A stretch of 64,000 nt of DNA, taken from the NCBI RefSeq assembly GCF_011762125.1, contig NZ_JAASQN010000002.1:62001-126000 (forward strand), read 5' to 3'. Position numbers and translations under genes: made by a program. The stretch comes from Sphingopyxis panaciterrae. Its GTDB lineage: Bacteria > Pseudomonadota > Alphaproteobacteria > Sphingomonadales > Sphingomonadaceae. Below are positions 10,328 through 31,191 of this stretch, piece after piece (the stretch's first letter is position 1; the number at the start of each line of letters is the position of its first letter). The notes below the pieces were generated by a model, which worked only from the letters and a program-made list of their open reading frames with translations, searched no databases and had not been told where the DNA came from.

Positions 10328-10597
10328 GTGGAACAGGGACAGGCGCTCGATTTACTCGATCAGATGCTGTGGAACGCCGTATTGCTCGCCATGCCGGTGT
10401 TGCTCGCGACGCTGGTGGTCGGGCTGATTATTTCGATCTTTCAGGTCGCGACCCAAATTCAGGAAATGACGCTTTCCTATGTGCCGAAAATCCTGACCGC
10501 GGCGTTCCTGCTGATCGCGCTTGGGCCGTGGATGCTCGGACGGCTGACCGACTGGGCACGCGCGCTCTATCTTTCCATCCCCACGCTCGGCCATTAG
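10328..10597 (+). CDS. fliQ: Flagellar export gate protein FliQ
   Basis: An 89-residue protein with two transmembrane helices (about residues 15-38 and 53-75) and the FliQ hallmark LLISIFQVATQIQE-type segment (VGLIISIFQVATQIQEMTL). FliQ is part of the FliPQR export gate in the MS-ring. It starts with GTG. It is the first gene of the plus-strand operon; fliR starts 17 bases after its stop. Confidence 0.95.
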   Translation: MEQGQALDLLDQMLWNAVLLAMPVLLATLVVGLIISIFQVATQIQEMTLSYVPKILTAAFLLIALGPWMLGRLTDWARALYLSIPTLGH

Positions 10598-10614
10598 GCG
10601 CGCGTTTCGCCCTC

Positions 10615-11376
10615 GTGGACGATTTCACCCGCCAGATTCTCGCGATCCTCTGCGTGTCGCTGCGCATCGCGCCCGCCCTCGCCTTTGCGCCGCCCTTCAC
10701 GCTGATGCGGGTGCCGGGGTTGGTGCGGGTGCTGATGGCCCTCGCCTTCGCCGCATGGATGGTCGGCACATGGCCGGACCGGACCGCGTCGCTGGTCGAT
10801 CGCGCCCCCTCGCTCGCGGCGCTGATGATGGGCGAACTGGTGATCGGCATCGCGATCGCGCTGGCGTTGCAGCTCTGCTTCGCGGCGGTGCTGTGGGCCG
10901 GCCAGACGCTCGACATCCAGGCGGGATTCGGGCTGGCGATGGTCGCCGATCCGACCACGCAGGCGCAGATGCCGCTGGCCGGCACGATCCTCGCTTATGC
11001 GACCGCCGCGGTCTTTTTCGCCGGGTCGGGACCGTTCGATCTGCTCGGCCTGTGGGCCGCATCGCTCGACATCGTCCCGCTCGGCGCCGCCCTGCGTCCC
11101 GACCTGGGCGCGATGGCGCAGCTGATGGGCGCCTTGTTCGGGGTGGCGATCGGGCTGGTCGGCATGGTGATGATGACGCTGTTCCTGCTCGACCTCGCCA
11201 TCGCCTTCATGTCGCGCGCACTGCCGCAGATGAATGTGCTGCTGCTGGGCTTCCAGGTGAAGGCGATCGCGATGCTGCTGTGCCTGCCGATCGCGATCGG
11301 GGCATCGGCCGCCCTGTTTCTCCGCCTGATCCGCCTTGCCCTGTCGGGCGCGCTGACGATGCTCGCGGTGTCCTGA
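10615..11376 (+). CDS. fliR: Flagellar export gate protein FliR
   Basis: The reading frame is open further upstream, but conserved FliR sequence begins near GTG at 10615, giving 253 residues. It has about six hydrophobic helices, the GELVIGIAIALALQL segment and the closing MNVLLLGFQVKA block typical of FliR/SctT. It completes the FliPQR gate with FliP, encoded in the opposing operon. flhB starts 3 bases after the stop. Confidence 0.93.
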   Translation: MDDFTRQILAILCVSLRIAPALAFAPPFTLMRVPGLVRVLMALAFAAWMVGTWPDRTASLVDRAPSLAALMMGELVIGIAIALALQLCFAAVLWAGQTLDIQAGFGLAMVADPTTQAQMPLAGTILAYATAAVFFAGSGPFDLLGLWAASLDIVPLGAALRPDLGAMAQLMGALFGVAIGLVGMVMMTLFLLDLAIAFMSRALPQMNVLLLGFQVKAIAMLLCLPIAIGASAALFLRLIRLALSGALTMLAVS

Positions 11377-11379
11377 CCG

Positions 11380-12468
11380 ATGGAGGGGCAGGAACAGAAC
11401 CGGACCGAGGAAGCGACGCCGTTCAAGCTCAAGCGGGCACGCGAAAAGGGCCAGGTCGCGCGCGGCCTGGACCTGGGCTTCGTCGGCAGCCTGATCGCGC
11501 TGATCTTCTTCGCGCTGGCCGCGGGCGCCGGTTTCGCGGTGACGCTCGCGCAGATCATGCGGCGGTCGCTGACCTTGGGCATCGAGCGTGCGGCCGACCC
11601 GTTCGAATTGCTCGCGCTCGGCGGTGCGGCGCTCCGCGAGGGGCTCTATCCGCTGATGCTGCTTGCCATCGCAATCGTCGTCATCCTGATCATCCTCGAC
11701 CTCATTCAGCTACGCGGGCTGATCTTCAGCTTTCAGCCGCTGAAACCCGATTTCACGCGGCTCAATCCGGCCCAGGGGGTCAAGCGCCTCTTTTCGCTGC
11801 GCATGCTCAAGGAAACGCTGAAGAATATCGTCAAGATGGTCTGCTATGCCGCGGTGACCTGGCTGGTGATCGTTGCCGCGATCGAAAGCTTCGGCCGCGG
11901 CATGCCTGGCAGCGGCGCCGTCATCCGCGCGCTGATGGGCAGCGCGGGCCAGATGGTCCTGGCCTTCTTGGGCGTCGCCATCTTCTTCACCGTTATCGAC
12001 CAGCTGATCGTTCGCCGCGAATTCCGCCGTCAGATGCGGATGAGCCGCCGCGAACTGACGCGCGAGATCAAAGACCGCGAGGGCGAACCCCGCATCAAGC
12101 AGAAACGCAAGCAGCTCCGCGCCCAGATGGTCGAACAGGCACGCGGCCTCGCGCGGGTCGCGGGCGCCGACCTGGTGGTCACCAATCCGGACCATTATGC
12201 CGTTGCCCTGCTGTATGATGCGGACAAAATGGATGCGCCAGTCGTCCATGCGCGCGGCCGCAATGTCATTGCCCAACTGATGAAGCGAAAGGCGCGGCTT
12301 TCGAACGTGCCGATCTTCGCCAATCCGCCGCTCGCGCGCGCGCTTTACCACCGGCATGACATCGATCAGGCCATCGGTGCCGACAGCTACCGTGCCGTCG
12401 CGGCCCTCTATATCCGCTTGCGCGAACGTAACGCCGCAGCGGGCGACCCCCAAGGCGATCCCACATGA
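11380..12468 (+). CDS. flhB: Flagellar export switch protein FlhB
   Basis: A 362-residue FlhB/SctU: cytosolic start EQNRTEEATPFKLKRAREKGQVA, four membrane helices to about residue 215, and a cytosolic domain. The autocleavage site normally reading NPTH is NPDH here (Asn269-Pro270-Asp271-His272). The cleaved Asn-Pro bond is kept but Thr is replaced by Asp. The downstream block AVALLYDADKMDAPVVHARG is conserved. FlhB switches export specificity from rod/hook to late substrates together with FliK. The stop overlaps the flhA start (ATGA). Confidence 0.95.
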   Translation: MEGQEQNRTEEATPFKLKRAREKGQVARGLDLGFVGSLIALIFFALAAGAGFAVTLAQIMRRSLTLGIERAADPFELLALGGAALREGLYPLMLLAIAIVVILIILDLIQLRGLIFSFQPLKPDFTRLNPAQGVKRLFSLRMLKETLKNIVKMVCYAAVTWLVIVAAIESFGRGMPGSGAVIRALMGSAGQMVLAFLGVAIFFTVIDQLIVRREFRRQMRMSRRELTREIKDREGEPRIKQKRKQLRAQMVEQARGLARVAGADLVVTNPDHYAVALLYDADKMDAPVVHARGRNVIAQLMKRKARLSNVPIFANPPLARALYHRHDIDQAIGADSYRAVAALYIRLRERNAAAGDPQGDPT

Positions 12469-14495
12469 CAAACTACTTCGGGCGGAACAAGGACCTGTTC
12501 CTCGTCGCCAGCTTCGTCCTGATCCTGATCATCCTGTTCGCGCCGATTCCGCCGGCTTTCCTCGACCTCGCGATCATCATGAACTTCGGGCTGGCGCTGA
12601 CGATCATGCTGCTGACCTTCTATGTCGCGAAACCGGTCGATTTTTCGACCTTCCCTTCGCTGCTGCTCGTCGCGACGCTGTACCGCCTTTCGCTGAACGT
12701 CGCCGCGACGCGGCTCATTCTGACCGGCGGCAACGCCGGCGAGGTGATTGGGTCGATCGGCTCCTTCGCGGTGCAGGGCAATTTTGTCATCGGCCTCGTC
12801 GTCTTCTCGATCCTCGTCGTCGTCCAGTTCATCGTCATCACCTCGGGTGCGCAGCGCGTTTCCGAGGTCGCGGCGCGCTTCACGCTCGACTCGCTCCCCG
12901 GCCAGCAGATGAGCATCGATGCCGACCTCAACATGGGACTGATCGACCAGAATGAAGCCGCGGCGCGGCGCAAGAATCTGGAGAAGGAAGCCTCTTTTTA
13001 CGGCGCGATGGATGGTGCGAGCAAGTTCGTGAAGGGCGATGCGGTCGCGGGCATCATCATCGTCCTGATCAATATCGTCGCGGGGCTGATCGTCGGCGTC
13101 GTCCAGATGGGGATGAACTGGGGGCAGTCGCTCGAACATTTCGCGCTGCTGACGATCGGCGATGGCATCGCGACGCAACTGCCGGCGCTGATCATCTCGA
13201 TCGCGACCGGCATCATCGTCACCCGCTCGGCCTCGGACCGCGAACTCAGCACCGAGATTTTCACGCAATTATCGTCGGTTCCCCGCATTCCGTTGATCGT
13301 TTGCGGCATCCTGCTCGCGCTGATGCTCCTGCCCGGCATGCCGAAATGGCCGATCCTGCTGATCGGCGCGCTGGCGCTCGTCGCCTGGGTCCGTATCCGC
13401 CGCCGGGCGCGAGCCGAAGCCGCGCTGGCGCATGCCGAGAGCGAAGGCGATATCGCCGAAACGGCATTGCCCGGTGAGGCCGCGCCGATCGAGATTCGGC
13501 TAGGCAGCGAACTCGCGACCTTCTGGGGTGAGCGGCGCGCGCTGTTGCTCGACCGGATCGCGACGAGCCGCGCCGCGCACGAAACGGCGTTCGGCATCGT
13601 CTTTCCCCCAGTGCGGCTGACCGACACCGCCGACCTGGGATCGCAGGATTATCGGATCGCGCTGCACGGCACCGCTTATGGCGCGGGCCGTATCGTGCCC
13701 GATCATCTTTTTGCCGTTCGCCCCGGTGAAGGGGGCGCGACGATGGAGGGGATCGAGGCCAGCGACCCCGCCTTCGGCCTGCCCGGTTGGTGGATCGACG
13801 CCGCGCGCGAAGGCGAAGCGCGCGCGAAAGCGTTGACCGTGATCGATCCTGAAACGGTCCTGATGACCCATTTCGCCGAAGTGATGAAGGCCGAGGTCGC
13901 AACGATGCTGACCCGCGCCGTCACCGCGCAGTTGATCGATCGCGCGCGCGAGCGGCAGTCCGGCCTTGTGGAGGAGCTCGTCCCGAACGTCATGACGATT
14001 TCGGACGTCCAGCGCGTATTGCAGAACCTGCTTGCCGAGCGTGTTTCGATCGCGAATATCGAGCTGATCCTCGAAATCCTGGTCGACGTCGCGCGGACCG
14101 AACGCGACCATGTCGCCCTCACCGATCAGGTCCGCCGCCATTTGAGCACGAGCATCTGCAACGGCCTGCGCGGCAATCACAGCCACCTCGCGGTGATCAG
14201 CCTCGACCCGCGCGTCGAAAACCAGATCGCGCAGAGCATCGGCGGGGGGGCAGCGCAGTCGGCGATCGGGCTCGAGCCGAAGCTGGCCGATCAACTGCTT
14301 CGCAAGCTGGGGCCGGCGGCGGAGACGATGTTGCGGCAGGGCCGCTCGCCCGTACTGCTGTGCGCGGCGCAGATCCGGCGTAACCTGCTGCGCCTGACCC
14401 AGCGGACCATTCCGCAGCTGTCGATCCTCGCCATCGAAGAAATTCCGCTGCGAACATCGCTGCAATCGTTTCAGGTCGTGAAGCTCGACAGCTGA
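12465..14495 (+). CDS. flhA: Flagellar export gate component FlhA
   Basis: A 676-residue FlhA/SctV: eight or so membrane helices in the first ~310 residues, including the conserved FHIPEP-type loop region around PFDFSTFPSLLLVATLYRLSLNVA-like sequence, followed by the large cytosolic domain that forms the nonameric ring. The C-terminus keeps the LSILAIEEIP block. It drives proton-coupled export and docks chaperone-substrate complexes. It overlaps flhB by four bases. Length is normal. Confidence 0.95.
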   Translation: MTNYFGRNKDLFLVASFVLILIILFAPIPPAFLDLAIIMNFGLALTIMLLTFYVAKPVDFSTFPSLLLVATLYRLSLNVAATRLILTGGNAGEVIGSIGSFAVQGNFVIGLVVFSILVVVQFIVITSGAQRVSEVAARFTLDSLPGQQMSIDADLNMGLIDQNEAAARRKNLEKEASFYGAMDGASKFVKGDAVAGIIIVLINIVAGLIVGVVQMGMNWGQSLEHFALLTIGDGIATQLPALIISIATGIIVTRSASDRELSTEIFTQLSSVPRIPLIVCGILLALMLLPGMPKWPILLIGALALVAWVRIRRRARAEAALAHAESEGDIAETALPGEAAPIEIRLGSELATFWGERRALLLDRIATSRAAHETAFGIVFPPVRLTDTADLGSQDYRIALHGTAYGAGRIVPDHLFAVRPGEGGATMEGIEASDPAFGLPGWWIDAAREGEARAKALTVIDPETVLMTHFAEVMKAEVATMLTRAVTAQLIDRARERQSGLVEELVPNVMTISDVQRVLQNLLAERVSIANIELILEILVDVARTERDHVALTDQVRRHLSTSICNGLRGNHSHLAVISLDPRVENQIAQSIGGGAAQSAIGLEPKLADQLLRKLGPAAETMLRQGRSPVLLCAAQIRRNLLRLTQRTIPQLSILAIEEIPLRTSLQSFQVVKLDS

Positions 14496-14547
14496 TCGGC
14501 TATCGTCGCCTATCCCCCTCGCCCATTTCAAAGGATTGACCGAAAAG

Positions 14548-15663
14548 ATGAACGCACCGGGACAACAGGATAGCCTCGCGAGGCTTCTCGGCTATCTGGA
14601 AAGCGATCCTGGCAATGCGGCCCTGCTGCGCGATTGCGCCGCCGCGGCGATGGCAGCGGGCGATGCCGCCGTGGCCGACGACTGCTATGCGCGTCTTGAG
14701 CAAATCGCGGGTTTGACCGAAAGTGACGCGTCGGCGGCCGGCCTCGCCGCGATGCAAAGCGGGCAGCAGGCGCGCGCGATCGGGCTGTTCGAGACCTTGG
14801 CAGATGCGCATCCCGGCGATCCCGCGATCCGCTTCAACCTCGCGTGGAGCCTGGCGCTCGACCGGCAATATGATCGTGCTGAAACGCTGCTCGACGACGC
14901 GACGATCGCCGCGCTCCCGCAAGCCGCGATGCTCGACCTGCAATTGCTGCACGAGCGCGGTGACTTCGACGGCGCGGCCGAAAAGCTCCGCCCCTATCTC
15001 GCTGCACATGGCGATTATGCCCCATTGCAGGCCGCGGTGTCGGTCCTCGCCATGGATCTCGACGAAGAGGCGCTGGCGCGACAGACTGCGATCGCCGGCG
15101 GCGACCATCCCGACGCACTGACCACGCTAGGCACGCTGACGCTTGGCGACGGCAATGCTGCGAAAGCCCACGCGCTGCTTGAGCGAGCGATGGCGCAAAA
15201 TGCGGCATCGCCGCGGACGTGGATCGGGCTTGGCCTCGCGAACCTCAACCTGGGAGCAACTGCGGACGCCTTGCAGCAGATCGATCATGGGGCGGCGCTG
15301 TTCGAGGATCATCTCGGCAGCTGGATCGCTGCCGGCTGGGCCCATCTGATCGCCGGCGACCGTGACGTTGCCGCCGCACGCTTCCAAAAGGCGATGGCGC
15401 TCGATGACAATTTTGCCGAATGCCATGGATCGCAAGCGACGATCGAGGCGCTTGCCGGAGATTTCGCGGCAGCCCGGCGCAGCATCGCGGTCGCATTCCG
15501 GCTCGATCGCCAATGCTTTTCCGCCGCCTTCGCCCAGATCCTCGTCGCTTCGGCGGAAGGTGATGCGAGCAAGGCGGACCATATATTGGAACGCGCAATG
15601 GATCAGCCGCTCGGCGATCAGGGCCAGACCTTGCGGGTGTTGCTCGGGCGGATTGCGCGGTGA
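14548..15663 (+). CDS. TPR-repeat protein of the flagellar operon
   Basis: About 371 residues, nearly all tetratricopeptide-like helical repeats (for example LGLANLNLGATADALQQIDHG and GWAHLIAGDRDVAAARFQKAM). No signal peptide or membrane segment is seen, so it is cytosolic. The ATG at 14548 is preferred; an in-frame TTG at 14536 abuts an AAGGA. It is the last gene of the fliQ-fliR-flhB-flhA operon, 52 bases after flhA. TPR proteins often act as chaperones or scaffolds for type III export; that role here is an inference from position. Confidence 0.8.
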   Translation: MNAPGQQDSLARLLGYLESDPGNAALLRDCAAAAMAAGDAAVADDCYARLEQIAGLTESDASAAGLAAMQSGQQARAIGLFETLADAHPGDPAIRFNLAWSLALDRQYDRAETLLDDATIAALPQAAMLDLQLLHERGDFDGAAEKLRPYLAAHGDYAPLQAAVSVLAMDLDEEALARQTAIAGGDHPDALTTLGTLTLGDGNAAKAHALLERAMAQNAASPRTWIGLGLANLNLGATADALQQIDHGAALFEDHLGSWIAAGWAHLIAGDRDVAAARFQKAMALDDNFAECHGSQATIEALAGDFAAARRSIAVAFRLDRQCFSAAFAQILVASAEGDASKADHILERAMDQPLGDQGQTLRVLLGRIAR

Positions 15664-15903: not shown

Positions 15904-16248
15904 TCATTCCCGCAGATCGCGACGCGCTGCACCCAGCAACGCTTTGCCGGCTTCGTCGTTCGCGAGCAGATCGACGACGCGCGAAACAAGTTGCTGGAAT
16001 TTGGGATCGTTAACGAGCCCCTCGCCGAATTCCTCAATCAACAGGCCCTGGATCATCGACCGTTCGACATCCTCGTCGCTCAGTGCATCCATTTGCGCGA
16101 GCGCGCGGATGCGGTGGATGTTCGATCCGTCGTCCGCGGTCTTTCCGCCCACATTCTGCGGTTTTCCGCCTTTTTTGAGTGCAGCTGCCCGCTCCAGCTT
16201 CTGACGAAGCAGGATCATGATATGGTCGGAGGCGGATATCCGCGTCAT
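15904..16248 (-). CDS. Unknown small protein, last gene of the flagellar minus operon
   Basis: A 114-residue, mostly helical and charged cytosolic protein, which I do not recognise. It opens with RISASDHIMILLRQKLERAAALKKG. An acidic central helix region (MDALSDEDVERSMIQGLLIEEFGEGL) and the C-terminal VVDLLANDEAGKALL follow. It lies 18 bases downstream of the TPR gene and is on the same strand, so it belongs to the operon headed by flgF. It could be an export accessory or rod-associated factor, but no motif proves this. Confidence 0.65.
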   Translation of the reverse strand: MTRISASDHIMILLRQKLERAAALKKGGKPQNVGGKTADDGSNIHRIRALAQMDALSDEDVERSMIQGLLIEEFGEGLVNDPKFQQLVSRVVDLLANDEAGKALLGAARRDLRE

Positions 16249-16266: not shown

Positions 16267-16830
16267 TCAGTGATGCGTCGTGCCGGGCGACAATTGGCCG
16301 AGCAGGAAAGACGTCGCCGACTCGCCGTCATCGCCGTTTTGCGGCGCTCCACCACCCAGCGCTTTGCGGCATTCGGCAAGGAGCAGCCCGATATCATGGT
16401 TCATCGGCGGGTTGTCACCGTTCAGCGCCATGCCGGCTTCGAATTGCTCGATCGCCGGACCGAATTCGTCGCGGATTAGATGGGTCAGTCCCTCGACAAA
16501 CCGGCGGAGGTAGTTGCCGATCGGCAGCTGAAGCAGCGGCCCCCAGGTCGACAACGCGCGATCGGCTTCACCCGACGTGAGTTCGAAGAAGCCGAGCTGA
16601 TAGCGTGCCAGCGTGTAATCGGGCGCCAGTTCGACCGCCTTTTGCAGCGCTTGATGCGCCTCGATAGCGCGCTGTTTTCCGGCGAGGGTTGAGCCGCGCA
16701 GAAAATGCAATCGCGGGTCTTCGGGAAAAAGGCGGAGCTCCCGGTCGATCTTGTCGAGGTCCCCGCTGTCGTCGCCGCGGATGTCTTCGACCAGCGCGGC
16801 CAGATCCTGGTCGCTGCACAATTTGCTCAT
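16267..16830 (-). CDS. TPR-repeat protein downstream of fliA
   Basis: About 187 residues, with tandem TPR helices (RLHFLRGSTLAGKQRAIEAHQALQ, LARYQLGFFELTSGEADRAL and similar). There is no signal peptide. The start at 16830 has AAGGAA upstream. An ATG at 16845 overlaps the fliA stop as ATGA and would add five residues. Its place after fliA and before the unknown terminal gene suggests a cytosolic helper of the export system, which is an inference. Confidence 0.8.
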   Translation of the reverse strand: MSKLCSDQDLAALVEDIRGDDSGDLDKIDRELRLFPEDPRLHFLRGSTLAGKQRAIEAHQALQKAVELAPDYTLARYQLGFFELTSGEADRALSTWGPLLQLPIGNYLRRFVEGLTHLIRDEFGPAIEQFEAGMALNGDNPPMNHDIGLLLAECRKALGGGAPQNGDDGESATSFLLGQLSPGTTHH

Positions 16831-16841
16831 GTCATTTTCCT

Positions 16842-17588
16842 TCATCCCGCCTTCTCCAGCCGGCCGTGCAGCCGGCCCAAGGCGCGCCCGTGTAACTGCG
16901 AGACGCGGCCGGTCGACAGGTCGAGCGCCGCGGCGATCTGCCGGAAGCTTACGCCATTCAGATAATGCTGCCGAACGATAAAGGCCTCGGTGGCGGGCAA
17001 ATCGTCGATCGCGCCGCGCAACAGCAGTTCGGTCTGCTTCCACGCCAGCGTATCATAAGCGTTCGGCTCGTTGGTGCCGACCTGCTCGACCTCGCCTTGA
17101 CGCCATTCCTCCAGGATCAGGCCGATCGCGAGCGTCGCCGTCAGCCGGGAAAGCTGTTGCAGCGCACTGTCCGCTTCGCCGGACGACGCCGGGATCAGTG
17201 ATTTGAGCCGCTCGCGCTCGGTCCGGCGGCGGTAGCCGGCGTTGGCGATCGCCTCGCTGTATTTTCCCAATCCGTTCGAGATGCTGCCCAGGATTCGCGG
17301 GCGCGCGAACGCCCGGAAAGGAATGGTGCGCAGTGGTTCAAAGCGGTCGATCGCCTGTAACAGCCCCTCATAGGCGAGTTGTTCGACATCTCCGATCTCG
17401 TGATTGTCGCTCCGCCGCGCCAGAAAGCGATCGCGCGCAATGCCGCGGGCGAAGCGGGCGTAGTGCGAGAATATCCGGCCGCGGACCGCCGCAACATTGC
17501 CGAGCGCGTTGCGCCACAGGGCTGCTTCGACCCTTTCCGGCTTGGCGATCATGTCGATCCCACGTTTTTTACGCGGATGCCCCTTCAT
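16842..17588 (-). CDS. fliA: Sigma-28-like flagellar sigma factor (FliA family)
   Basis: A 248-residue sigma-70 family protein. Region 2 is visible as GDVEQLAYEGLLQAIDRFEP and IPFRAFARPRILGSI; the C-terminal region 4 has LPATEAFIVRQHYLNGVSFR and the helix-turn-helix QIAAALDLSTGRVSQLHGRAL. This is the FliA/SigD architecture. It overlaps the fliP stop as ATGA, so it is translationally coupled. No flgM-type anti-sigma gene is visible in the window. Its targets are unknown, since no filament genes lie here. Confidence 0.87.
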   Translation of the reverse strand: MKGHPRKKRGIDMIAKPERVEAALWRNALGNVAAVRGRIFSHYARFARGIARDRFLARRSDNHEIGDVEQLAYEGLLQAIDRFEPLRTIPFRAFARPRILGSISNGLGKYSEAIANAGYRRRTERERLKSLIPASSGEADSALQQLSRLTATLAIGLILEEWRQGEVEQVGTNEPNAYDTLAWKQTELLLRGAIDDLPATEAFIVRQHYLNGVSFRQIAAALDLSTGRVSQLHGRALGRLHGRLEKAG

Positions 17589-18316: not shown

Positions 18317-18690
18317 CGCTCGGCCTCTCCGGAATCCGGCGAACGCAGCGGCGAGCGGTCGAGCAGGGTCGATCCACCAGCTCCGACCGCGACCAGGTAG
18401 CGCTCGCCATCATAATCGAAGATACAAAGGTCGACCGACATGTTGACCCGGCGCGTTTCGACGATTTCGATGGCGCGTGCGCCGGCGCCGAGACCGCGCG
18501 GAAGGAACGAGCCTATTCCAGCGTTCACCCGCCCCGCGCGAACCCGCCGCAGCGCGAGGATGAGCAGCACCGCGATCCCGATGCACAGCAACCAGGCACC
18601 GAACACCCTCCACAAGGAAATGCCGGCACCAAGCGCCCCGTCATCGGGCGCCGTCGCGCCCTTGAGCATCAGCAGCACAATCACATTCAT
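18313..18690 (-). CDS. fliO: FliO-like flagellar assembly protein
   Basis: With ATG at 18690 the product has 125 residues. It has one membrane helix (VFGAWLLCIGIAVLLILAL) after a short periplasmic segment, then a small cytosolic domain with VDLCIFDYDGERYLVAVGAGGSTLLD, the usual FliO pattern. FliO is weakly conserved, so the call relies on topology, size and position directly before fliP (ATGA overlap). It assists FliP assembly. Confidence 0.8.
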   Translation of the reverse strand: MNVIVLLMLKGATAPDDGALGAGISLWRVFGAWLLCIGIAVLLILALRRVRAGRVNAGIGSFLPRGLGAGARAIEIVETRRVNMSVDLCIFDYDGERYLVAVGAGGSTLLDRSPLRSPDSGEAER

Positions 18691-18712
18691 CGCGATGGAG
18701 CGCCCTTTGCCA

Positions 18713-18982: not shown

Positions 18983-18985
18983 CGA

Positions 18986-20943: not shown

Positions 20944-20944
20944 C

Positions 20945-24575: not shown

Positions 24576-24955
24576 AGATTCATGTCCTTCAGCCATTGCC
24601 GCCACCGCCTTCCGATCTGGCCCCGCCAGCTCTCTTCCTTTGCGCCGCCGTCGCGAATTTGATGCGCTGACGCGAGGAGCAGTTCGGCGGCGGCGAGAGT
24701 CATTCGCAGTTCGGCCGGCGGTGCCTCTGTTTGCCCCTCGAGTTCATGTAAAAGCTGCGAGAGCGGCGACGAAAACATCGCCCAATTTTTCATCCCTATG
24801 TCTGTTGGTGAAGGCGCTTGCGCCGCGCGATTCCTGACATCGATCATCGCCATCAGGCCGCGGCGCTGGTCGTCATCCAGCCGTGCAAGAATAGCCTTGC
24901 GATCCGAACGCGACAGGCTGTGCCATCGCTGGAGCGTCGGCGATGCGTCACTCAT
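24572..24955 (-). CDS. Unknown 127-residue protein in the fliG position
   Basis: It sits between fliF and fliH, overlapping both, exactly where fliG (about 330 residues) is expected. It is short and helical: HSLSRSDRKAILARLDDDQRRGL, then LSQLLHELEGQTEAPPAELRMTLAAAELLLASAHQIRDG, and a basic end WRGQIGRRWRQWLKDMNL. None of the FliG armadillo repeats or its charged torque helix is visible. It is probably cytosolic. It may replace part of FliG as an adaptor between FliF and the C-ring or export platform, which is an inference from position. Confidence 0.75.
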   Translation of the reverse strand: MSDASPTLQRWHSLSRSDRKAILARLDDDQRRGLMAMIDVRNRAAQAPSPTDIGMKNWAMFSSPLSQLLHELEGQTEAPPAELRMTLAAAELLLASAHQIRDGGAKEESWRGQIGRRWRQWLKDMNL

Positions 24956-26180
24956 TGCGCTCGGCCCGAAACGCGTCGAGTTCCTCGCTCAGCACGGTAG
25001 CGAAATGCTGTCGCTCATCATCGCTCAACGATCCGCGCTGGCGCCAGACGAGCCACAGGACCACCGCAATCAAACCCGTCAAAAGCCACAGCCAGCGGTT
25101 CGCCAGCAGGCCATGCGGCAACGCGAAGGACGACGCGGGCTCGCTCGCTCTTTCGCGCGATGTCCGGTCCCAGTCGATCGCCGGCTGGGCGGCCGAGGCC
25201 ATGGGGGTGGCGCGGGGGCGGACGACACCGGTCTGGAACGTCACGCTGTCGCCCGCGCCGAGATCGAGTGCCAGATCCTCGACAATGCGCGTCGAAATGT
25301 CGTTCTGATCGGCCGGCGGCAGTGCATCGATCGTGCGGACGATGATCTGCATGTGCGATGTTGAACCGGTTTTCGCGTCATTCTCAGACGCCGATGTCAT
25401 GGCGGCGCTTCCGGCGCGCGCCGAAACGATCAACTCGAACGGGTGGCCGCGCATCAATTCCTCGATCGCATTGCTCGCCTTGATCTGCGAATATTGCTCG
25501 AAAGCCGCGCGTTCGGTAAGCCCCGAACCGAGGGCCATGGCGGACGGTGCCGCGCTGAGTGTCATGCCCGCATCGTCCAGAACGACCACTTGTTCGGGCG
25601 AAAGATCAGTCACGGAAGCGGCGACAAGTTGTTGCAGTCCCTGCACGCGGCTGGGCGCCAACGGGCGACCGTCGGTCGTCTGGACGGTGATCGCGGCCGA
25701 TGGATGCGCTTGTTCGTTACGGAAGATGCTGCGCTCGGGAAGAGCGAGATGGACGCGCGCGAACCGGACACCCTCCATCGCCATGATCGTCCGTGTCAGC
25801 TCGCCTTGCAGCGCGCGCAGATAATTCATCTTCTGCGAAAACTCGGACAAGCCGATGTCCGAATCGTCGAACAGTTCGAATCCGACCTCACCCCCCGCCA
25901 GTACATTCGCGGCAGCGACCGCGACCCGCGCCGACGCGACCGCGTCGCGGTCGACGAGCACGCTATGCCCATCGTCGGCCAGCTTGTACGCGATACCTTG
26001 CTTGTCGAGTTCGGCGGTCACCGCCGACGTATCGGATTCACGCAGGTTTTCGAAAAGGACCGAATAGTCCTTGGCCAAAAACAGATAATAAGACAGCAGA
26101 AGCAGTAGGACCAGCACCGCGAAACTAATCGCTCCGAAACGGAAAACACGCTGCGATTCAGATTTTTGGACGTCGACCAT
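24948..26180 (-). CDS. fliF: MS-ring protein FliF (compact form)
   Basis: A 410-residue FliF; usual length is 530-580. TM1 is near residues 14-34 and TM2 near 357-379, with about 30 cytosolic residues after it. The ring-building motifs of the first half are clear (YSVLFENLRESDTSAVTAEL, GFELFDDSDIGLSEFSQKMNYLRALQGELTRTI, ARVHLALPERSIF). The RBM3/beta-collar part is strongly shortened, giving a layout closer to SctJ. It starts the export-core half of the operon; fliE precedes it by 9 bases. Confidence 0.93.
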   Translation of the reverse strand: MVDVQKSESQRVFRFGAISFAVLVLLLLLSYYLFLAKDYSVLFENLRESDTSAVTAELDKQGIAYKLADDGHSVLVDRDAVASARVAVAAANVLAGGEVGFELFDDSDIGLSEFSQKMNYLRALQGELTRTIMAMEGVRFARVHLALPERSIFRNEQAHPSAAITVQTTDGRPLAPSRVQGLQQLVAASVTDLSPEQVVVLDDAGMTLSAAPSAMALGSGLTERAAFEQYSQIKASNAIEELMRGHPFELIVSARAGSAAMTSASENDAKTGSTSHMQIIVRTIDALPPADQNDISTRIVEDLALDLGAGDSVTFQTGVVRPRATPMASAAQPAIDWDRTSRERASEPASSFALPHGLLANRWLWLLTGLIAVVLWLVWRQRGSLSDDERQHFATVLSEELDAFRAERNE

Positions 26181-26189: not shown

Positions 26190-26510
26190 TCAAAGCTGCA
26201 TGTTCATGAGTTCGCGGTACCCTTCGACCAACCGCGCGCGCACCTGCATTGCCATTTCCACCGCCAGCCGCGCCTCTTCGAGCGCGATCGTGACCTGGTG
26301 CAACGGGAGCGTGTCATCGACGGTGAACTGACGAACCAAGGCCTCCGAGCGTGCGAGCTTGGCATCGACGGCCTGTAGCCCACCGGTCAGGAGCGATTCG
26401 AATGTGGCTGGTGTCGTCGCGGCCTTTGCCGGCGCCGCTCCAAATGCGCCCGCCGCAGGGTCGATCGATATCGACACCGATGCCGGTGAAATCGGCAGCA
26501 CCGCGGTCAT
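26190..26510 (-). CDS. fliE: MS-ring/rod adaptor FliE
   Basis: A 106-residue FliE: low-complexity N-terminus followed by FESLLTGGLQAVDAKLARSEALV and the diagnostic C-terminal LHQVTIALEEARLAVEMAMQVRARLVEGYRELM. FliE connects FliF to the proximal rod. It overlaps the flgC stop as ATGA. Confidence 0.93.
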   Translation of the reverse strand: MTAVLPISPASVSISIDPAAGAFGAAPAKAATTPATFESLLTGGLQAVDAKLARSEALVRQFTVDDTLPLHQVTIALEEARLAVEMAMQVRARLVEGYRELMNMQL

Positions 26511-26959
26511 GACTGGCGGCCGATCTGGAGTGCCGCACTATACATTTGAAGCGCCGCCGACATCGCCACCATATTCGCTTCATAGGCGCGGCTCGTCTTG
26601 ACCATCAGCGTCATTTCTTCGGCTTGGCTGATCGCCGGATAGGTCACATATCCTGTCTCATCGGCGTCGGGGTGGCGGGGATCATAAACCTCGCGCACGC
26701 CGCCGGTGACCTCGGCGATTTCATAGACGGCGACCCCCTGCGGCGCCCGATCGGACCGCATCGCGCCCTGTCGCGGTGCCAGTCCCTGATCGACGAGACG
26801 GTTGAATCCGGTTGCGGGGCCCGACACCAGCTTGCGCGGCAGATAGCCGGCCGGGCCAGTGCGGCTGGTGTTCATACTGGCGATATTCTGCGCAATGACC
26901 TGCAACCGCTGCCATTCGACGTCCATACCGCTCATGCTGATGGCGAAAGCATCCATCAC
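26507..26959 (-). CDS. flgC: Rod protein FlgC
   Basis: A 150-residue proximal rod protein. The N-terminal motif QRLQVIAQNIASMNTSRTGPAGYLPRK and C-terminal YPAISQAEEMTLMVKTSRAYEANMVAMSAALQMYSAAL identify FlgC. It overlaps flgB and fliE as ATGA on both sides, so synthesis is tightly coupled. Confidence 0.94.
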   Translation of the reverse strand: MMDAFAISMSGMDVEWQRLQVIAQNIASMNTSRTGPAGYLPRKLVSGPATGFNRLVDQGLAPRQGAMRSDRAPQGVAVYEIAEVTGGVREVYDPRHPDADETGYVTYPAISQAEEMTLMVKTSRAYEANMVAMSAALQMYSAALQIGRQS

Positions 26960-27303
26960 TGGCCTCCCCGGATCGCTGTGCGCTCGATTTGCATCTGGCG
27001 GCCGAGGATATCGATCAACGCGGCATAGCGCGTCGACGTTCGCGCCGCCTCTGCCATTTCCATGTCGAGCCGCACCGCACGATCGCCAAGTTCGTCGGAC
27101 AGCGGCATGATCTTCGCCGGGCTGTCGTTGATCGCTTTCAGGCCCTGCGACGCTGCTGCACGCAATTCCTGTTCGAACGCGACCCCGCGCGGTTGAAAAC
27201 CGATAGAATTGCTGTTGGCGATATTCTCGGCGATTACTGCGGCGCGCAAATGCAGGCCGTCGAGGGCTTTGGAGATTAACGAGGCGGATATCGGATCCAT
27301 CAC
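26956..27303 (-). CDS. flgB: Rod protein FlgB
   Basis: A 115-residue proximal rod protein with the N-terminal AAVIAENIANSNSIGFQPRGVAFEQEL motif and C-terminal RLDMEMAEAARTSTRYAALIDILGRQM. Size and order before flgC-fliE are standard. It follows flgI by 6 bases. Confidence 0.93.
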   Translation of the reverse strand: MMDPISASLISKALDGLHLRAAVIAENIANSNSIGFQPRGVAFEQELRAAASQGLKAINDSPAKIMPLSDELGDRAVRLDMEMAEAARTSTRYAALIDILGRQMQIERTAIRGGQ

Positions 27304-27309
27304 ATTATC

Positions 27310-28434
27310 CTATTGAACGATGATTTCGGCATGGAGGGCACCTGCGGCCTTCATGGCCTGCAGGATGCTGATCGTGCGCCGTGTATCGACACGCGCGCGC
27401 GACAATCCCTCGACGAGCGCCGCTACGCTGCTGTCGGGAAAGCGCATCGCATGGTCGTTGCCGCCCTGGTCGACCTCCAGCTTGGTGTTGCTGACGATCA
27501 GGCTTTGCACGTCGGAGGCGAAGCCGCCGATGAACGATGGCTGCGATGCATAATTTTCGGTCGTCACCGCGACTTTGATATCGCCCTGCGACACGACGAC
27601 ACTCGATACACGCACGTCGCCCCCGGCAACGATGGTCCCGGTCCGTTCGTTGATCACGATACGCTGCGGCCGGTCGGGCGCGACCGCGAGAGCCTCGATC
27701 GAGGCGACGAACGCCGCGAGCCCGGCCCGGTTGCCGCCGAAATGGATGACGACCTCATCGGCGTTGCGGACGTTTGCTGTCCCCGATCCCATCGTCGCGT
27801 TGATCCGCGTCGCGATCCGCTCCGCGGTGGTGAAGCTGGGGTCGGTCAGCAGGAAGCTGATCTCGCCGCGGTCATTCAGCACCGACGCGTCAACCGCAGT
27901 TTCGACCGTCGCGCCGCCGGGCACCATTCCGGATGTGGGATAATTGCGTTGCTGCCGGTTGGCATTCGCCTCGAAATCAAAGCCGCCGACGGTGAGCGGT
28001 CCCTGCGCCAGCGCATAGGGGCGCTGGTCGGGGCCGAGCAGCGGCGTCATGAGCAAGGTTCCGCCGGCGAGCGAACGCGCATCGCCGATCGACGAGATAG
28101 TGACGTCGATCCGGTCGCCAGGATTGGCCGATGCGGGCAGCATCGCGGTCACGATCACCACCGCAACGTTGCGGCTGCTGATCTGCTCCTCGGTCACGAC
28201 GGTGCCGAGCCGCGCCAGCACGTTACGCAACGCCTGCCGCGTCACGTCACTGCGCCGCGTGTCCCCCGAACCGGCAAGACCGGTAACGAGGCCATAGCCG
28301 ATGAGCGCATTCTGGCGCCAGCCGCTGAAGCGCCCGAGCGCGGTGAGTTGCACCTCGCCCGGCGCAGCCATCGCGGTGGGCGCGTGCGAAAGCGCCATCA
28401 GCATCGCGGCAAGGAGGATCACGATCTTTCGCAT
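27310..28434 (-). CDS. flgI: P-ring protein FlgI
   Basis: The ATG at 28434 gives 374 residues with a signal peptide (MRKIVILLAAMLMALSHA). Family blocks include RQNALIGYGLVTGLAGSGD, VAVVIVTAMLPASANPGDRIDVTISSIGDARSLAGGTLLMTPL and the C-terminal VDTRRTISILQAMKAAGALHAEIIV. It builds the peptidoglycan-level ring around the rod. The start lies 1 base after the flgH stop. Confidence 0.95.
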   Translation of the reverse strand: MRKIVILLAAMLMALSHAPTAMAAPGEVQLTALGRFSGWRQNALIGYGLVTGLAGSGDTRRSDVTRQALRNVLARLGTVVTEEQISSRNVAVVIVTAMLPASANPGDRIDVTISSIGDARSLAGGTLLMTPLLGPDQRPYALAQGPLTVGGFDFEANANRQQRNYPTSGMVPGGATVETAVDASVLNDRGEISFLLTDPSFTTAERIATRINATMGSGTANVRNADEVVIHFGGNRAGLAAFVASIEALAVAPDRPQRIVINERTGTIVAGGDVRVSSVVVSQGDIKVAVTTENYASQPSFIGGFASDVQSLIVSNTKLEVDQGGNDHAMRFPDSSVAALVEGLSRARVDTRRTISILQAMKAAGALHAEIIVQ

Positions 28435-28435
28435 C

Positions 28436-29038
28436 TCAACCGATCCCGAGGAAGCCGAAGATGCGGTTGAGCAGGCCTGGTTTGGCGCTGCGGCTGACAA
28501 AGCCCTTGCCGTCGAAACTGATCTGGGCGTCGGCGATCCGCGAGGAGACCACGCTGTTGTCGCTCATGATGTCGACGGGGCGGATGCGGCCGCGGATCCG
28601 GATATTCCGATTCTCGCCGTTGATCAGCATATTATGCTGCCCTTCGATCATCATGTCGCCATTGGTGGCCATGCCGGTGACCTGCGCGGTGATCCGCGCG
28701 ACGAGCTGTTCGGACCGCGAGACTTCGCCGGTGCCAGTGAAGCCGCCCCCGAAGTCGAGGCTGCCATGTTCGTCGATCGATCCGGCGCTGAGCCCACCCT
28801 GAACCTGCGTTTTCTTGCTCGAGCGGTTCGTCACGCGGTTCGACGCGCTGGCGTTCTCGAAGATAACGATCGTGACGGCGTCGCCGACGCCGGCGGCCTT
28901 GATATCGGACGCGATCGCCGGAAATCCCCCGCCCTTGTAAAGATCCTCCGCCGCCCCCGGCATCGCCGCCAGCAACAGCGACATGGCCGCCAGCACCGCT
29001 CCCGATCGCCAGCGCCTTTCAGCTCGCATCGTCGCCAT
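28436..29038 (-). CDS. flgH: L-ring protein FlgH without lipobox
   Basis: The start at 29038 follows GGAGG by 6 bases and gives 200 residues. Recognisable FlgH blocks are GVGDAVTIVIFENASASNRVTNR, GSLDFGGGFTGTGEVSRSEQL and the C-terminal SRIADAQISFDGKGFVS. FlgH is normally an outer-membrane lipoprotein. Here the signal region (GAVLAAMSLLLAAMPGAAEDLYK) contains no cysteine, so export by signal peptidase I is predicted and lipid anchoring is lost. It overlaps flgA by 20 bases. Confidence 0.9.
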   Translation of the reverse strand: MATMRAERRWRSGAVLAAMSLLLAAMPGAAEDLYKGGGFPAIASDIKAAGVGDAVTIVIFENASASNRVTNRSSKKTQVQGGLSAGSIDEHGSLDFGGGFTGTGEVSRSEQLVARITAQVTGMATNGDMMIEGQHNMLINGENRNIRIRGRIRPVDIMSDNSVVSSRIADAQISFDGKGFVSRSAKPGLLNRIFGFLGIG

Positions 29039-29705
29039 TCCCTTCCTCCGCCGGTAGGGGCGCCGCGACGACGCGTCCGTCGGACAGCGCAACGAAAGCG
29101 TTGCGACCTGGACGCCCTGCCTGGACGAGGCGCGCCGAGCGCTCGACCGTCACCGGGCCGACACGCGTCCGAAGGGTCATTTCGCTTCCGCGCCGATGCG
29201 GTAGTTTAAGGGGCAGCAAGACCGGCCCGAGATAGGCTCCGGCAGGCAATGCCACGCGCGCCGCGGGCGCCCCGGCATCCTCGCTGTACGATAACAGCAC
29301 CCGACGCTTCATATGGTCGCACGGTACGACGCTGGCCTGCGCCCGATCGACGGGATCACCGACACCGATGGGTTGATTGAGCGCGAGACAAGGGGCGCGG
29401 CGGTTGCCGTTCACCGATCGCGCAAATTCGACGCGGACATCGTGCTGGGTTCGGGGAGCGATCCGAAACACCGGCAGTCGACGATGGAGCAATCGCTTCT
29501 GGTCGTCCAGCGTCAGGACGATGCTCCTTACGCCGTGGGGCGCCTTCAAAAGCCGGAAGTCGCCACCTGCGGCCGCCGGAATGTCGCCCGGCGCAGCGAG
29601 ATGCGCAAGCGTCAGATAGTCGCCGTCGACATGGAGAAGCGTGGCGCCGGCAGCCGGGGTTGCGGGGATAAGCGTTGCTGCCTGAAGCAGCAGGACAGAA
29701 AGCAT
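29019..29705 (-). CDS. flgA: P-ring assembly chaperone FlgA
   Basis: A 228-residue protein with an N-terminal signal peptide and a C-terminal SAF/ChapFlgA domain (LNQPIGVGDPVDRAQAS, RVALPAGAYLGPVLL, TLRTRVGPVTVERSARLVQAGRPGRNAFVALSDGRVVAAPL). FlgA assists periplasmic assembly of FlgI, whose gene is two places downstream. The start lies 5 bases after the flgG stop. Confidence 0.87.
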   Translation of the reverse strand: MLSVLLLQAATLIPATPAAGATLLHVDGDYLTLAHLAAPGDIPAAAGGDFRLLKAPHGVRSIVLTLDDQKRLLHRRLPVFRIAPRTQHDVRVEFARSVNGNRRAPCLALNQPIGVGDPVDRAQASVVPCDHMKRRVLLSYSEDAGAPAARVALPAGAYLGPVLLPLKLPHRRGSEMTLRTRVGPVTVERSARLVQAGRPGRNAFVALSDGRVVAAPLPAEEGNGDDAS

Positions 29706-29710
29706 CGCCG

Positions 29711-30484
29711 TTACCGCTTCAGGCTGTTCGTGATTCCGGCGAGTTGGTCGGCTGCCTGGACGATCTGCGCGCTCGCGGCGAACGCGCGCTGGACGGTGAG
29801 CAGGTCGACCATTTCCTCGGTCAGCTGCACATTCGAATTTTCGACGCGTTCCTGCGCGAACAGCCCCGCGCCATCCTCGCCCGGCCGCGCGTCGATCAAC
29901 CGCGCATCGTCGGCGGGCCGGTAAAGACCGCGGTCAAGGCGTTCGACATCGCCTTCGGTCGCGACGCGGACCAGCGCGATCTGTCCCAGTTCGGCGCCCT
30001 TGGTTTCGGGAAGGTCGGCCTTTACAACCCCTTCCGCCGTGATCGTCAAATTGGTCGCGTCGTCGGGAACCACAATGTTCGCCCGCAGCGCATGGCCGCT
30101 GTCGCTCGCGAGCATGCCGTCCTCAAGCAGCTTGAGCCGGCCGCCGCGCCACAACAGCAGTTGGCCGTCGGGGCCAAGCAGCTCGATGAATCCTGCGCCG
30201 TCGATCGCAAGGTCGAGACGGTTCCCGGTGGTGCGGATTTCGCCCTGCTGGAACAGCATCTCCTGCGGCGAAAAGCGCACTCCGCCTGCCGGGAGCATCT
30301 CCTGCGCGGCGAGCAGCGCGGTCTGGCTGACCGGCTGGATTTGCCGCCCCATCACTTCCGAAAAAGTCGTGTCGACGCGCTTGTACGTCGGCGTGTTCAC
30401 ATTAGCCACATTGTTGGCGATCGTATCGAGTGCGCGCTGCTGCGCGCGCAGCGCGACCGCGCCGATATCCATTGCCCCGTTCAT
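29711..30484 (-). CDS. flgG: Distal rod protein FlgG
   Basis: A 257-residue flagellar rod/hook family protein. The N-terminus has ALDTIANNVANVNTPTYKRVDTTFSEVM; RLDLAIDGAGFIEL follows, and the C-terminus ENSNVQLTEEMVDLLTVQRAFAASAQIVQAADQL is typical. FlgG and FlgF are similar; order (second after flgF) and the longer length favour FlgG. The start overlaps the flgF stop as ATGA; ATG at 30472 is an alternative. Confidence 0.88.
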   Translation of the reverse strand: MNGAMDIGAVALRAQQRALDTIANNVANVNTPTYKRVDTTFSEVMGRQIQPVSQTALLAAQEMLPAGGVRFSPQEMLFQQGEIRTTGNRLDLAIDGAGFIELLGPDGQLLLWRGGRLKLLEDGMLASDSGHALRANIVVPDDATNLTITAEGVVKADLPETKGAELGQIALVRVATEGDVERLDRGLYRPADDARLIDARPGEDGAGLFAQERVENSNVQLTEEMVDLLTVQRAFAASAQIVQAADQLAGITNSLKR

Positions 30485-31191
30485 CGTCCCGCCCTCGCAA
30501 AAGTCGTAATCGCCTGTCCGATAAGCTGGTCATAGGTCCGTACCAACTGCGCTGCCCCCTCGGCCTGCCGCGTGTTCGCCATGAGCGCGACCATTTCGTC
30601 GCTCAGCACCACGTTCGACGATTCGAGCATTCCCTGCCGGATTTCGAACGCGCCCTCGTCGATTTCGGCCGGTTCGCCCGCGAGGGGCAAGAGACCGCCC
30701 CCCGCCCGCCCCGACGCGCCGCCCGGCGCCGCATATACGCCGATCCGGCCGACCGCGGCCCCCTGGTCGAGCAGAGTGCCGTCGCTTAAAATTTCCACCG
30801 CATCGCTTTCGACCGCCGCGTCAACGCCACCGGCGAACTGCAACACAAGCCCCTCCGCATTCCGCAGCACCCCTTCGGGACCGCGCGAAAAGCGGCCCGA
30901 CCGGGTCAGGAAATATTGATCGCCCCGGCGAATCAGAAAATACCCATCGCCCGAAATCGCAATATCAAGTGAGTTTCCGGTGTTCTTCAACGTTCCTTGT
31001 GAAACATCGCTACCGAACATCTGAATCGGACCAAGTATAATTCCGCGATTCGCACTCGATTTTTCTACGAAATTGGAGATAATTCGCTTGAATCCGGGCG
31101 TAGATGTATTTGCTATATTATTCGATATAGTGCCGAGCCGCTTCTCGGTATTCGACAGAATAGAAGCCGCTGCGTCGATCAAGTTGCCCAA
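30481..31191 (-). CDS. flgF: Rod protein FlgF
   Basis: A 236-residue rod protein with the N-terminal KRLGTISNNIANTSTPGFKR motif, NSLDIAISGDGYFLIRRGDQYFLTRSGRF and the C-terminal SSNVVLSDEMVALMANTRQAEGAAQLVRTYDQL. It is the first gene of the 23-gene minus-strand operon. Its first ~55 codons use A/T-ending codons (ATA, AAT, ACA) much more than the rest of the operon. A CtrA-type site and a sigma-54-like element lie upstream. Confidence 0.88.
   Translation of the reverse strand: MGNLIDAAASILSNTEKRLGTISNNIANTSTPGFKRIISNFVEKSSANRGIILGPIQMFGSDVSQGTLKNTGNSLDIAISGDGYFLIRRGDQYFLTRSGRFSRGPEGVLRNAEGLVLQFAGGVDAAVESDAVEILSDGTLLDQGAAVGRIGVYAAPGGASGRAGGGLLPLAGEPAEIDEGAFEIRQGMLESSNVVLSDEMVALMANTRQAEGAAQLVRTYDQLIGQAITTFARAGR

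Follow-up and report, generated by a model that had tools for sequence, protein, structure and literature searches.

A motorless flagellar-type secretion locus of Sphingopyxis panaciterrae and its pairing with giant Rhs toxins

Background

The locus described here bears on two open questions, namely what the relationship of the flagellum to the injectisome is and whether a hook-basal body can by itself serve to export toxins. We report the analysis of two convergent, flagellar-type operons in a window of 64,000 nucleotides of Sphingopyxis panaciterrae (RefSeq assembly GCF_011762125.1, contig NZ_JAASQN010000002.1, positions 62,001 to 126,000; G000:C2:62001-126000 in our numbering), taken from a 4.84-Mb genome that is listed as 100% complete. 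The locus, to which we refer as the machine, probably encodes a dedicated, motorless flagellar type III system which exports giant Rhs toxins as its late substrate, in the place of flagellin, an export that we infer from the genes and their associations. Our findings suggest that bacteria have turned a flagellum into a toxin-export device.

If true, the flagellum would have been made into a weapon a second time, the injectisome being the other case, and this weapon would be widespread, motorless and sometimes plasmid-borne. This group of giant Rhs toxins would thereby gain a way out of the cell, and the retention of 'flagellar' genes in non-motile bacteria such as some Lysobacter might be explained. 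An earlier note on this DNA had proposed either a non-motile rod-hook secretion machine or a flagellum whose missing parts lie elsewhere. Gene content, distribution and phylogeny speak for the former proposal; the latter is not supported. The likely Rhs cargo, a possible FliG-like stub, a sigma factor and a promoter pattern had been overlooked.

Results and Discussion

Gene content of the locus

The two convergent operons that the earlier note had read at 10328-31191 are confirmed by profile searches. The plus-strand operon runs fliQ-fliR-flhB-flhA-TPR (10328-15663) and the minus-strand operon runs from flgF to a gene of 114 amino acids (31191-15904; Table 1), and the same gene order at the loci of other genomes argues that this arrangement is not due to chance. 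FlhA, FlhB, FliR, FliQ, FliP, FliI, FliF, FliE, FlgC, FlgD, FlgE, FlgF, FlgG, FlgH, FlgI, FliN and the C-terminal SpoA domain of the FliM-like protein are backed by hidden Markov models (HMMs), and to this extent the gene list first drawn up stands; FliO, FliH and FlgB match their Pfam families weakly and FliJ, FliK and FlgA are named from position only. The residues N-P-x-H of FlhB are found in all 25 aligned rows, which include the canonical FlhB of this genome and count two loci twice. In addition, the operons encode a FliA-like sigma factor, two TPR proteins and two short proteins, X1 (114 amino acids) and X2 (127 amino acids), and the Rhs genes at 31490-48229 probably belong to the same unit.

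Among the scanned open reading frames (ORFs) of the locus we found no fliG, motA/B, flagellin, fliD, fliS, flgK/L, flgJ, fliL, flgM or flgN family, in agreement with the earlier note. The export gate, ATPase, rod, hook and LP rings of a motile flagellum are present (FlgB weakly), and the torque-domain FliG, the flagellin filament and the MotA/MotB stator are missing at the locus; lacking a stator, a FliG and a flagellin that belong to it, the machine would not rotate.

A separate flagellum in the same genome

The missing parts occur elsewhere in the genome, as members of a second set. A genome-wide search returned a single FliG_C match, on contig C9, where positions 157-14927 read by eye as fliS, fliD, flhB, fliR, fliQ, fliP, fliO, fliN, fliM and fliL and, further on, fliJ, fliI, fliH, fliG, fliF, fliE and fliC; flhB, fliQ, fliP, fliN, fliI, fliF and fliE were also found there by tblastn. 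Contig C10 (289-16587), again named by eye, carries motB, motA, flgL, flgK, flgJ, flgI to flgA, flgM, flgN, flhA and a fliA-like gene, with flhA, flgD, flgI, flgH and flgG likewise found by tblastn. Two Flagellin_N matches were obtained in the genome, the second within the flgL-like ORF. The FlhA of the window shares only 37% identity with that of C10, and the operon's sigma factor 19% with the genome's other FliA-like protein. Since the genome holds this separate flagellar set, complete with its own flhA, flhB, fliE-fliR and rod and hook genes, the window locus is an additional set of export, rod, hook and ring genes and not part of this genome's flagellum.

The relatives lead to the same conclusion. 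Searches of 38 machine-bearing genomes matched FliG in 32 and flagellin in 32, and neither in the same six (G177, G222, G1135, G1127, G1152 and G1146), among which G177 and G222 have stated completeness of 99% and 100% and G1152 and G1146 are Lysobacter sp. yr284 and ISL-50. One carrier without a FliG match is Sphingorhabdus sp. Alg239-R122. The machine is thus present where an ordinary flagellum seems impossible. A second working flagellum, borrowing FliG, stator and flagellin from a primary set, could in this genome draw on the one FliG, the flagellin matches and the motA/motB-like genes described above, yet the six genomes, a FliF recognised in its N-terminal half only and the hook-filament junction genes, which are not seen at the locus, leave such an arrangement the least probable of the explanations considered here.

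Phylogeny and distribution of the machine FlhA

In a tree of 95 FlhA rows the 51 from the machine group together as a single clade (SH-aLRT 100), and in a more careful tree of 38 rows the 16 of them that were included again form one, with support of 100/100. A long branch splits this separate clade from five SctV rows. Its hosts are Sphingomonadales, Caulobacter, relatives of Burkholderia, Lysobacter, Legionella and Pseudoalteromonas, and it is sometimes found on plasmids; a monophyletic clade of such spread rules out the relic of a single genome.

The locus was found in one of 35 congeners (G032, FlhA identity 88%) and same-type FlhA in 7 of 396 Sphingomonadales genomes (own genome 100%, the others 58-66%), while a sample of the class (385 genomes) held it in the own genome only. 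Seven of the 378 genomes in a sample of the phylum lay above the cut-off; three of these (G1035, G837 and G895) fall among ordinary flagellar FlhA in the tree, and the own genome and three others remain as carriers of the machine FlhA (4/378). Among the 20 genomes of a genus sample taken around Lysobacter sp. yr284, eight have an FlhA of the clade, with the locus near-complete in G1192 and G1189 and present up to the contig end in G1146. Gene order is kept in the Sphingomonadaceae loci, in G1079, G1107 and G1056 and on plasmids of Burkholderia ubonensis (typed as conjugative) and Undibacterium sp. YM2 (pUYM01).

The same comparisons bear on the question of whether the machine is a true non-flagellar type III secretion system (NF-T3SS), or injectisome, misnamed as flagellar. 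A tree that joins the machine clade to SctV, apart from every other flagellar row, cannot be rejected (p-AU 0.179), the FliN-like protein scores slightly better as SctQ than as FliN (NCBIfam, 74.6 vs 65.5 bits, both under cut-off), the FlhB scores for the flagellar and injectisome types are near-equal (274 vs 270 bits) and TPR protein 1 has a weak SctY match (31 bits, cut-off 70). Against this, FlhA (NCBIfam FlhA 713 bits vs SctV 547 bits, both under cut-off), FliP, FliF and FlgI all score better as flagellar than as injectisome proteins, and fliE, flgB, flgC, flgF, flgG, flgE, flgH and flgI occur at the locus, where a search limited to the scanned ORFs found no secretin (SctC) family. In the available sections of one account, the NF-T3SS is recognised by its lack of the rod genes fliE, flgB and flgC (PMC3459982), whereas fliE and flgC are matched here and flgB weakly so; the machine resembles the NF-T3SS as a flagellum-related system for non-motile secretion, and differs from it in keeping the flagellar rod, hook and LP rings in place of needle and secretin (PMC3459982, same sections). 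We regard an injectisome as very improbable. The FliM-like protein is predicted to contain a middle domain of FliM/CheC type, and in the VIA-align list for its model SctQ-type proteins appear only as SpoA fragments.

Some FlhA matches stood out during this survey. In four Legionella genomes (G1185, G1183, G1181 and G1179) each machine FlhA match is listed with one internal TAA, Aquabacterium sp. A7-Y (G1138) has five matches to the FlhA/SctV family in one genome, and a 97-kb plasmid of Photobacterium toruni (L244) carries a divergent flhA, on a long branch of the tree, beside flgA and a fliM/fliN gene.

Pairing of the machine with one Rhs N-terminus

The giant Rhs protein beside the machine begins with an N-terminus that is common to the Rhs proteins of other loci and reads, in alignments, M-[VT]-[AS]-I-[FV]-x-G-x-G-x-G-[LF]. 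Among the 396 Sphingomonadales genomes this N-terminus occurs in seven, from 5 of 84 genera, and these are identical to the seven that have the machine FlhA; if the two were independent, the chance of this would be 3.5e-15 by genome and 3.2e-8 by genus, both of which kinship makes too small. An Rhs gene or a piece of one lies within 6 kb of the machine in six of eight Sphingomonadaceae loci (G000, G032, G413, G287, G326 and G222), and for the other two (G177 and G366), in which the contig with the machine breaks off at the locus, the Rhs N-terminus lies on a different contig. The two are also close together in Paraburkholderia metrosideri, in G1056, on the conjugative Burkholderia ubonensis plasmid and in one genome of the Lysobacter sample.

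The association holds when it is approached from the Rhs side. A scan of genome_contigs (84,980 species) for the Rhs N-terminus with one ten-residue pattern, which misses relatives that differ there, provided 79 loci from the best 80 of 94 relatives, and 63 genomes were searched for FlhA, with one locus each. Machine FlhA was found in 52 of the 63 (41/49 + 11/14), counting a piece at a contig edge in G1168 and a partial copy in G1127, as against 4 of 378 in the phylum sample. These matches score at least 578 bits (the edge piece 426), compared with at most 477 bits for other FlhA/SctV copies in the same genomes; 30 of the 40 full matches of the first batch and the 11 of the second were placed in the tree, less duplicates, and the other ten were assigned by score alone. 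Machine FlhA is present on 3 of 72,556 plasmids (48-50% identity; the tree puts them in the clade), and all three are among the six plasmids that match the Rhs N-terminus (75-77% of the query covered). A control search with the RHS repeat matched 4 of 216 genomes, namely three machine genomes and G230, which has a frame of 1499 amino acids, under a cut-off that is too strict for a 38-residue repeat.

Homologues of both TPR proteins adjoin an Rhs gene in some other loci, and a TPR homologue lies within 2.6 kb of Rhs in 19 of the 74 loci which have enough upstream DNA. In L133, L137, L151, L122, L143 and L152 a homologue of a machine TPR protein lies within 2.6 kb of the Rhs start, with fewer than two other machine genes found in the stretch fetched, which is as expected for a cargo chaperone.

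A sigma-28-like promoter pattern before the Rhs genes

The sigma-28 consensus reads TAAAG-N15-CCGAT. In the 250 bp upstream of 67 Rhs starts we found a common CTAAAC-N15-CGGAT, of the same layout. A blind count of spaced four-letter pairs places the top pair in 20 of the 67 regions, against top counts of 5-7 in five shuffles, and TAAA[ACT]-N14-16-[CT]GGA occurs in 27 of the 67, against a mean of 1.4 and a maximum of 5 in 50 Markov shuffles, with 3 on the reverse strand and none inside coding DNA (0/64). The gap is 15 bases in 24 of 28 sites. A further match lies at 63501 of the window, in which 2.6 matches are expected by chance, so that the support for the site before the Rhs gene of the window comes from the comparison of the 67 loci; a looser form of the pattern was not found before the canonical fliC. 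Since the machine operon encodes a FliA-like factor, the simplest reading is that Rhs is a late gene in the place of flagellin.

The Rhs genes and their products

Judged by its sequence, the Rhs protein of the window is a polymorphic toxin, with a Tox-URI2 tip, an Imm30 gene and an orphan tip nearby, and a putative pairing of toxin and immunity protein. Its ORF (3783 amino acids) opens at 48229, with a conserved ATG at 48160, and no Sec-like signal is visible by eye in the N-terminus; open Rhs frames across the loci span about 3300-4900 amino acids. The 214-amino-acid protein at 34137-34781 is possibly the immunity gene of the orphan tip. The YD-repeat body and the C-terminal toxin are shared with Rhs toxins of the type VI secretion system or the cell surface, as described in the accessible portion of PMC10433427, here together with an immunity gene and an orphan tip, and unlike those toxins the machine-associated Rhs proteins have a conserved N-terminus of their own.

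Genome G413 holds four Rhs N-termini. On the Undibacterium plasmid pUYM01 (L232, record 129783-168629) a gene of 38.8 kb, encoding 12,948 amino acids and annotated as a 'tandem-95 repeat protein', adjoins the machine and weakly matches the Rhs N-terminal query (28.6%, E 6e-9). The cargo of the machine may extend beyond Rhs alone.

X2 and a proposed mechanism

The place between fliF and fliH is usually that of fliG (sctK in injectisomes), and here it is occupied by X2, a possible FliG-like stub. In an X2 set taken from 16 of 20 sources, the HMM-HMM match to FliG is weak (hhalign, P 0.001, probability 8.7%) and the best match among PDB profiles, also weak, is again FliG (E 0.0096). Pfam returned nothing firm, with one of the 16 members matching FliG_N at E 0.16 and unrelated families scoring higher, and Foldseek gave no match better than E 3.7.

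We propose that FlhA, FlhB, FliP, FliQ, FliR and FliO would form the export gate within a shortened FliF ring, with FliI, FliH and FliJ supplying energy, and that FliE, the rod proteins, FlgI, FlgH and the FlgE hook with its FlgD cap, all of whose genes are seen, would by analogy with the known families build a channel across both membranes. X2 might serve as a short adaptor that holds FliM and FliN on FliF, replacing the torque-bearing FliG, in which case the C-ring would be a static loading platform. Once the hook is complete, the FlhB/FliK switch would change the substrate class and the operon's FliA-like sigma factor would activate the 'late' gene, here the giant Rhs toxin and not flagellin. 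The toxin would be exported N-terminus first, perhaps with the help of the TPR proteins, and would fold on the outside so as to enclose its C-terminal toxin tip, as a weapon against neighbouring bacteria. The passage of Rhs through the machine, its delivery by the hook and its target are what we infer from these parts.

A variant of this mechanism, which we think unlikely though worth stating, is that the exported Rhs is neither released nor injected and remains attached to the tip of the hook, as a surface toxin or adhesin on a stalk; the gene set stops at FlgE and FlgD, with no filament genes, and the cargo is very large, both of which would suit it. More tentative than toxin export itself, and in our view less likely than not, is the proposal of a third lineage of the flagellum/injectisome family, a hook-basal body that would have parted from the sampled flagella so early that the tree does not place it among them, with a C-ring built on a short FliG-like stub, passing giant Rhs toxins (12,948 amino acids encoded on one plasmid) through the hook into or onto neighbouring bacteria and moving between classes, also on plasmids.

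Weighing the evidence

Several observations weigh against export of Rhs by the machine. Eleven of the 63 Rhs-bearing genomes have no machine FlhA match: seven metagenome-assembled genomes, Chromobacterium piscinae, C. aquaticum, Pseudoalteromonas sp. S16_S37 and Legionella shakespearei; among the seven the genome of L144 has six machine genes beside Rhs and that of L122 has X1 and TPR protein 1. Three of the six plasmids with the Rhs N-terminus (Eleftheria terrae NZ_CP106952 and NZ_CP106953 and one of Undibacterium sp. KW1) have no listed machine FlhA. Close linkage is not the rule, with at least two machine genes in only 17 of the 74 Rhs loci, the fetched stretch being at most 10 kb per side. 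Four of the 63 genomes (G032, G222, G1079 and G177) repeat earlier samples and the tests are therefore not wholly independent. The promoter pattern is lacking in 40 of the 67 upstream regions, was drawn from the same 67 sequences in which it was counted, related loci among them, and is not seen in the window upstream of either fliQ or flgF. In G413 only the fliQ-TPR1 half was located beside flhA, and the possible role of X2 as a FliG-like stub has weak matches and an empty fold search behind it.

These points have to be set beside another explanation, that of a degenerate or retained flagellum which has lost its motor and filament genes, the rest being a relic or serving minor roles as proposed for non-flagellated Lysobacter, with the Rhs genes as hitch-hikers. 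The parts absent here overlap the losses listed for Lysobacter in the available text of PMC9927559 (fliC, fliD, flgK, flgL, fliG, motA and motB), Rhs cargo is known in a secondary flagellar locus, the flag-2 of one Escherichia fergusonii strain (PMC6993521), and the flagellar export genes of L. enzymogenes OH11 are said not to form an operon (PMC7277350), which shifts the balance slightly towards this explanation. On the other hand, 51 FlhA proteins from alpha-, beta- and gammaproteobacteria fall in one clade with one gene set, which looks like one old system and not like many separate losses, and FliG is also present in most carriers (32/38). A relic would not predict the seven-of-seven pairing with one Rhs N-terminus or a common promoter pattern, and we consider it improbable. 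Our preferred reading remains toxin export by a dedicated machine.

Relation to known systems

A functional divergence of the flagellar type III system has reportedly been seen in a predatory Lysobacter. In L. enzymogenes OH11, which has no flagellum, the flagellar export genes secrete a foreign flagellin, for which flhB and fliI are needed (PMC7277350). Lysobacter genomes are reported to lack fliC, fliD, flgK, flgL, flgB, fliE, fliG, fliM and motA/B, and the retained flagellar type III secretion system (FT3SS) is presented as a remnant involved in twitching and antifungal activity (PMC7277350, PMC9927559). Both that set, which is reported as secretion-active, and the window locus have flagellar export genes but no fliG and no stator, junction or filament genes. 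The two overlap widely though not fully: the window locus has diverged flgB, fliE and fliM, which are reported as lost in Lysobacter. The 'retained' genes of Lysobacter may be the same system; 8 of the 20 genus-sample genomes carry an FlhA of the clade, and OH11 was not identified among them.

FliO genes within 'nonflagellar T3SS' operons are listed for Caulobacterales, Sphingomonadales, Burkholderiales and Xanthomonadales in PMC12403147. The host range overlaps that of the machine, and in both fliO lies within a non-motility operon; section 7 of that source lists the operons only and does not name rod, hook or LP-ring genes for them. They may include the machine system. With the bacterial flagellum the machine shares the export gate, ATPase, MS ring, rod, hook, LP rings and FliM/FliN and, as we propose, a sigma-28-like late control; what sets it apart is that the locus lacks a torque FliG, a stator and a filament, and that an Rhs toxin is proposed to replace flagellin.

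Among the matches listed in our literature search, which left most subscription journals outside, there was no report of Rhs with flagellar-type secretion, and the word 'rhs' had no match in the available text of PMC7277350, PMC9927559 and PMC12403147. As far as the literature searched goes, four points look new: the pairing with Rhs, the late-gene promoter pattern, the grouping in a single clade and the copies on plasmids.

Features of the window

Table 1. Genes and sites of the machine locus and the adjoining Rhs region (window positions)
Feature	Position	Strand	Evidence
fliQ (89 aa)	10328..10597	+	Pfam Bac_export_3 E 2.4e-27; 59-96% identity in 7/7 same-type Sphingomonadaceae loci
fliR (matched part; ORF opens at 10279)	10639..11376	+	Pfam Bac_export_1 E 3.6e-40, ORF residues 121-351
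flhB	11380..12468	+	Pfam E 4.4e-91; N-P-D-H at autocleavage position
flhA (676 aa), clade marker	12465..14495	+	Pfam FHIPEP E 3.4e-226; trees
TPR protein 1 (375 aa), candidate chaperone	14536..15663	+	TPR families; present in 7/7 other Sphingomonadaceae loci
X1 (114 aa), conserved	15904..16248	-	No Pfam match; aligned across 9 loci
TPR protein 2 (ORF, start uncertain), candidate chaperone	16267..17043	-	TPR families
FliA/sigma-28-like sigma factor	16842..17588	-	NCBIfam FliA_WhiG E 2.6e-20 (under cut-off); Sigma70_r2, Sigma70_r4
fliP	17585..18316	-	Pfam E 4e-69; NCBIfam fliP above cut-off
fliO-like	18313..18765	-	Pfam FliO E 0.038; position
fliN-like SpoA protein (89 aa)	18713..18982	-	Pfam FliMN_C E 2.7e-19
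fliM-like (260 aa)	18986..19768	-	SpoA domain (C-terminal) by HMM
flgE-like hook protein	19765..20952	-	Pfam; NCBIfam FlgEFG subfamily E 1.3e-67
flgD (hook cap)	20945..21382	-	Pfam E 5e-17
fliK-like	21379..22137	-	Position only; no Pfam match
fliJ-like	22134..22643	-	Position only; no Pfam match
fliI ATPase	22576..23895	-	Pfam ATP-synt_ab E 6.8e-72, T3SS_ATPase_C; P-loop AASGVGKT
fliH-like	23892..24605	-	Pfam FliH E 0.034; position
X2 (127 aa, unannotated), possible FliG-like stub, between fliF and fliH	24572..24955	-	Weak HMM-HMM and PDB matches
fliF (410 aa)	24948..26180	-	NCBIfam fliF above cut-off, positions 27-222 of 555
fliE	26190..26510	-	Pfam E 2.8e-19
flgC	26507..26959	-	Pfam Flg_bbr_C; position
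flgB	26956..27303	-	Pfam Flg_bb_rod E 0.012; position
flgI (P ring)	27310..28500	-	Pfam E 1.5e-108
flgH (L ring)	28436..29092	-	Pfam E 2.8e-41
flgA-like	29019..29705	-	Position only; no Pfam match
flgG	29711..30484	-	Profile matches
flgF, first gene of the minus operon	30481..31191	-	Profile match
Orphan Rhs fragment	31490..33739	-	Pfam RHS_repeat; two stretches repeat main Rhs gene at 84% and 91%
214-aa protein between Rhs cassettes	34137-34781		Lower third-position GC; no Pfam match
Orphan Rhs tip cassette: Rhs stem copy, then different tip	34802..35461	-	300-bp repeat at 97%; translations
Imm30-family immunity protein	35590..36057	-	Pfam Imm30 E 9.6e-12
Giant Rhs polymorphic toxin, likely cargo	36878..48160	-	RHS_repeat E 1.1e-107; Tox-URI2 tip; N-terminal alignments; co-occurrence
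Sigma-28-like promoter pattern TAAAC-N15-TGGA, 108 bp before Rhs start codon	48245..48268	-	Comparison of 67 loci

Comparison of X1 by hhalign with the genome's own proteins gave no support for its being FlgM, FlgN, FliS, FlgJ, FliE or FliA-like (P 0.097-0.82). A tRNA-Pro lies at 10008-10084, just before fliQ; as an island site it was dropped, since a scan of 18 stretches from relatives showed no tRNA at the corresponding position. On the Undibacterium plasmid (L232:20338-21470) flgI is annotated as two adjacent ORFs.

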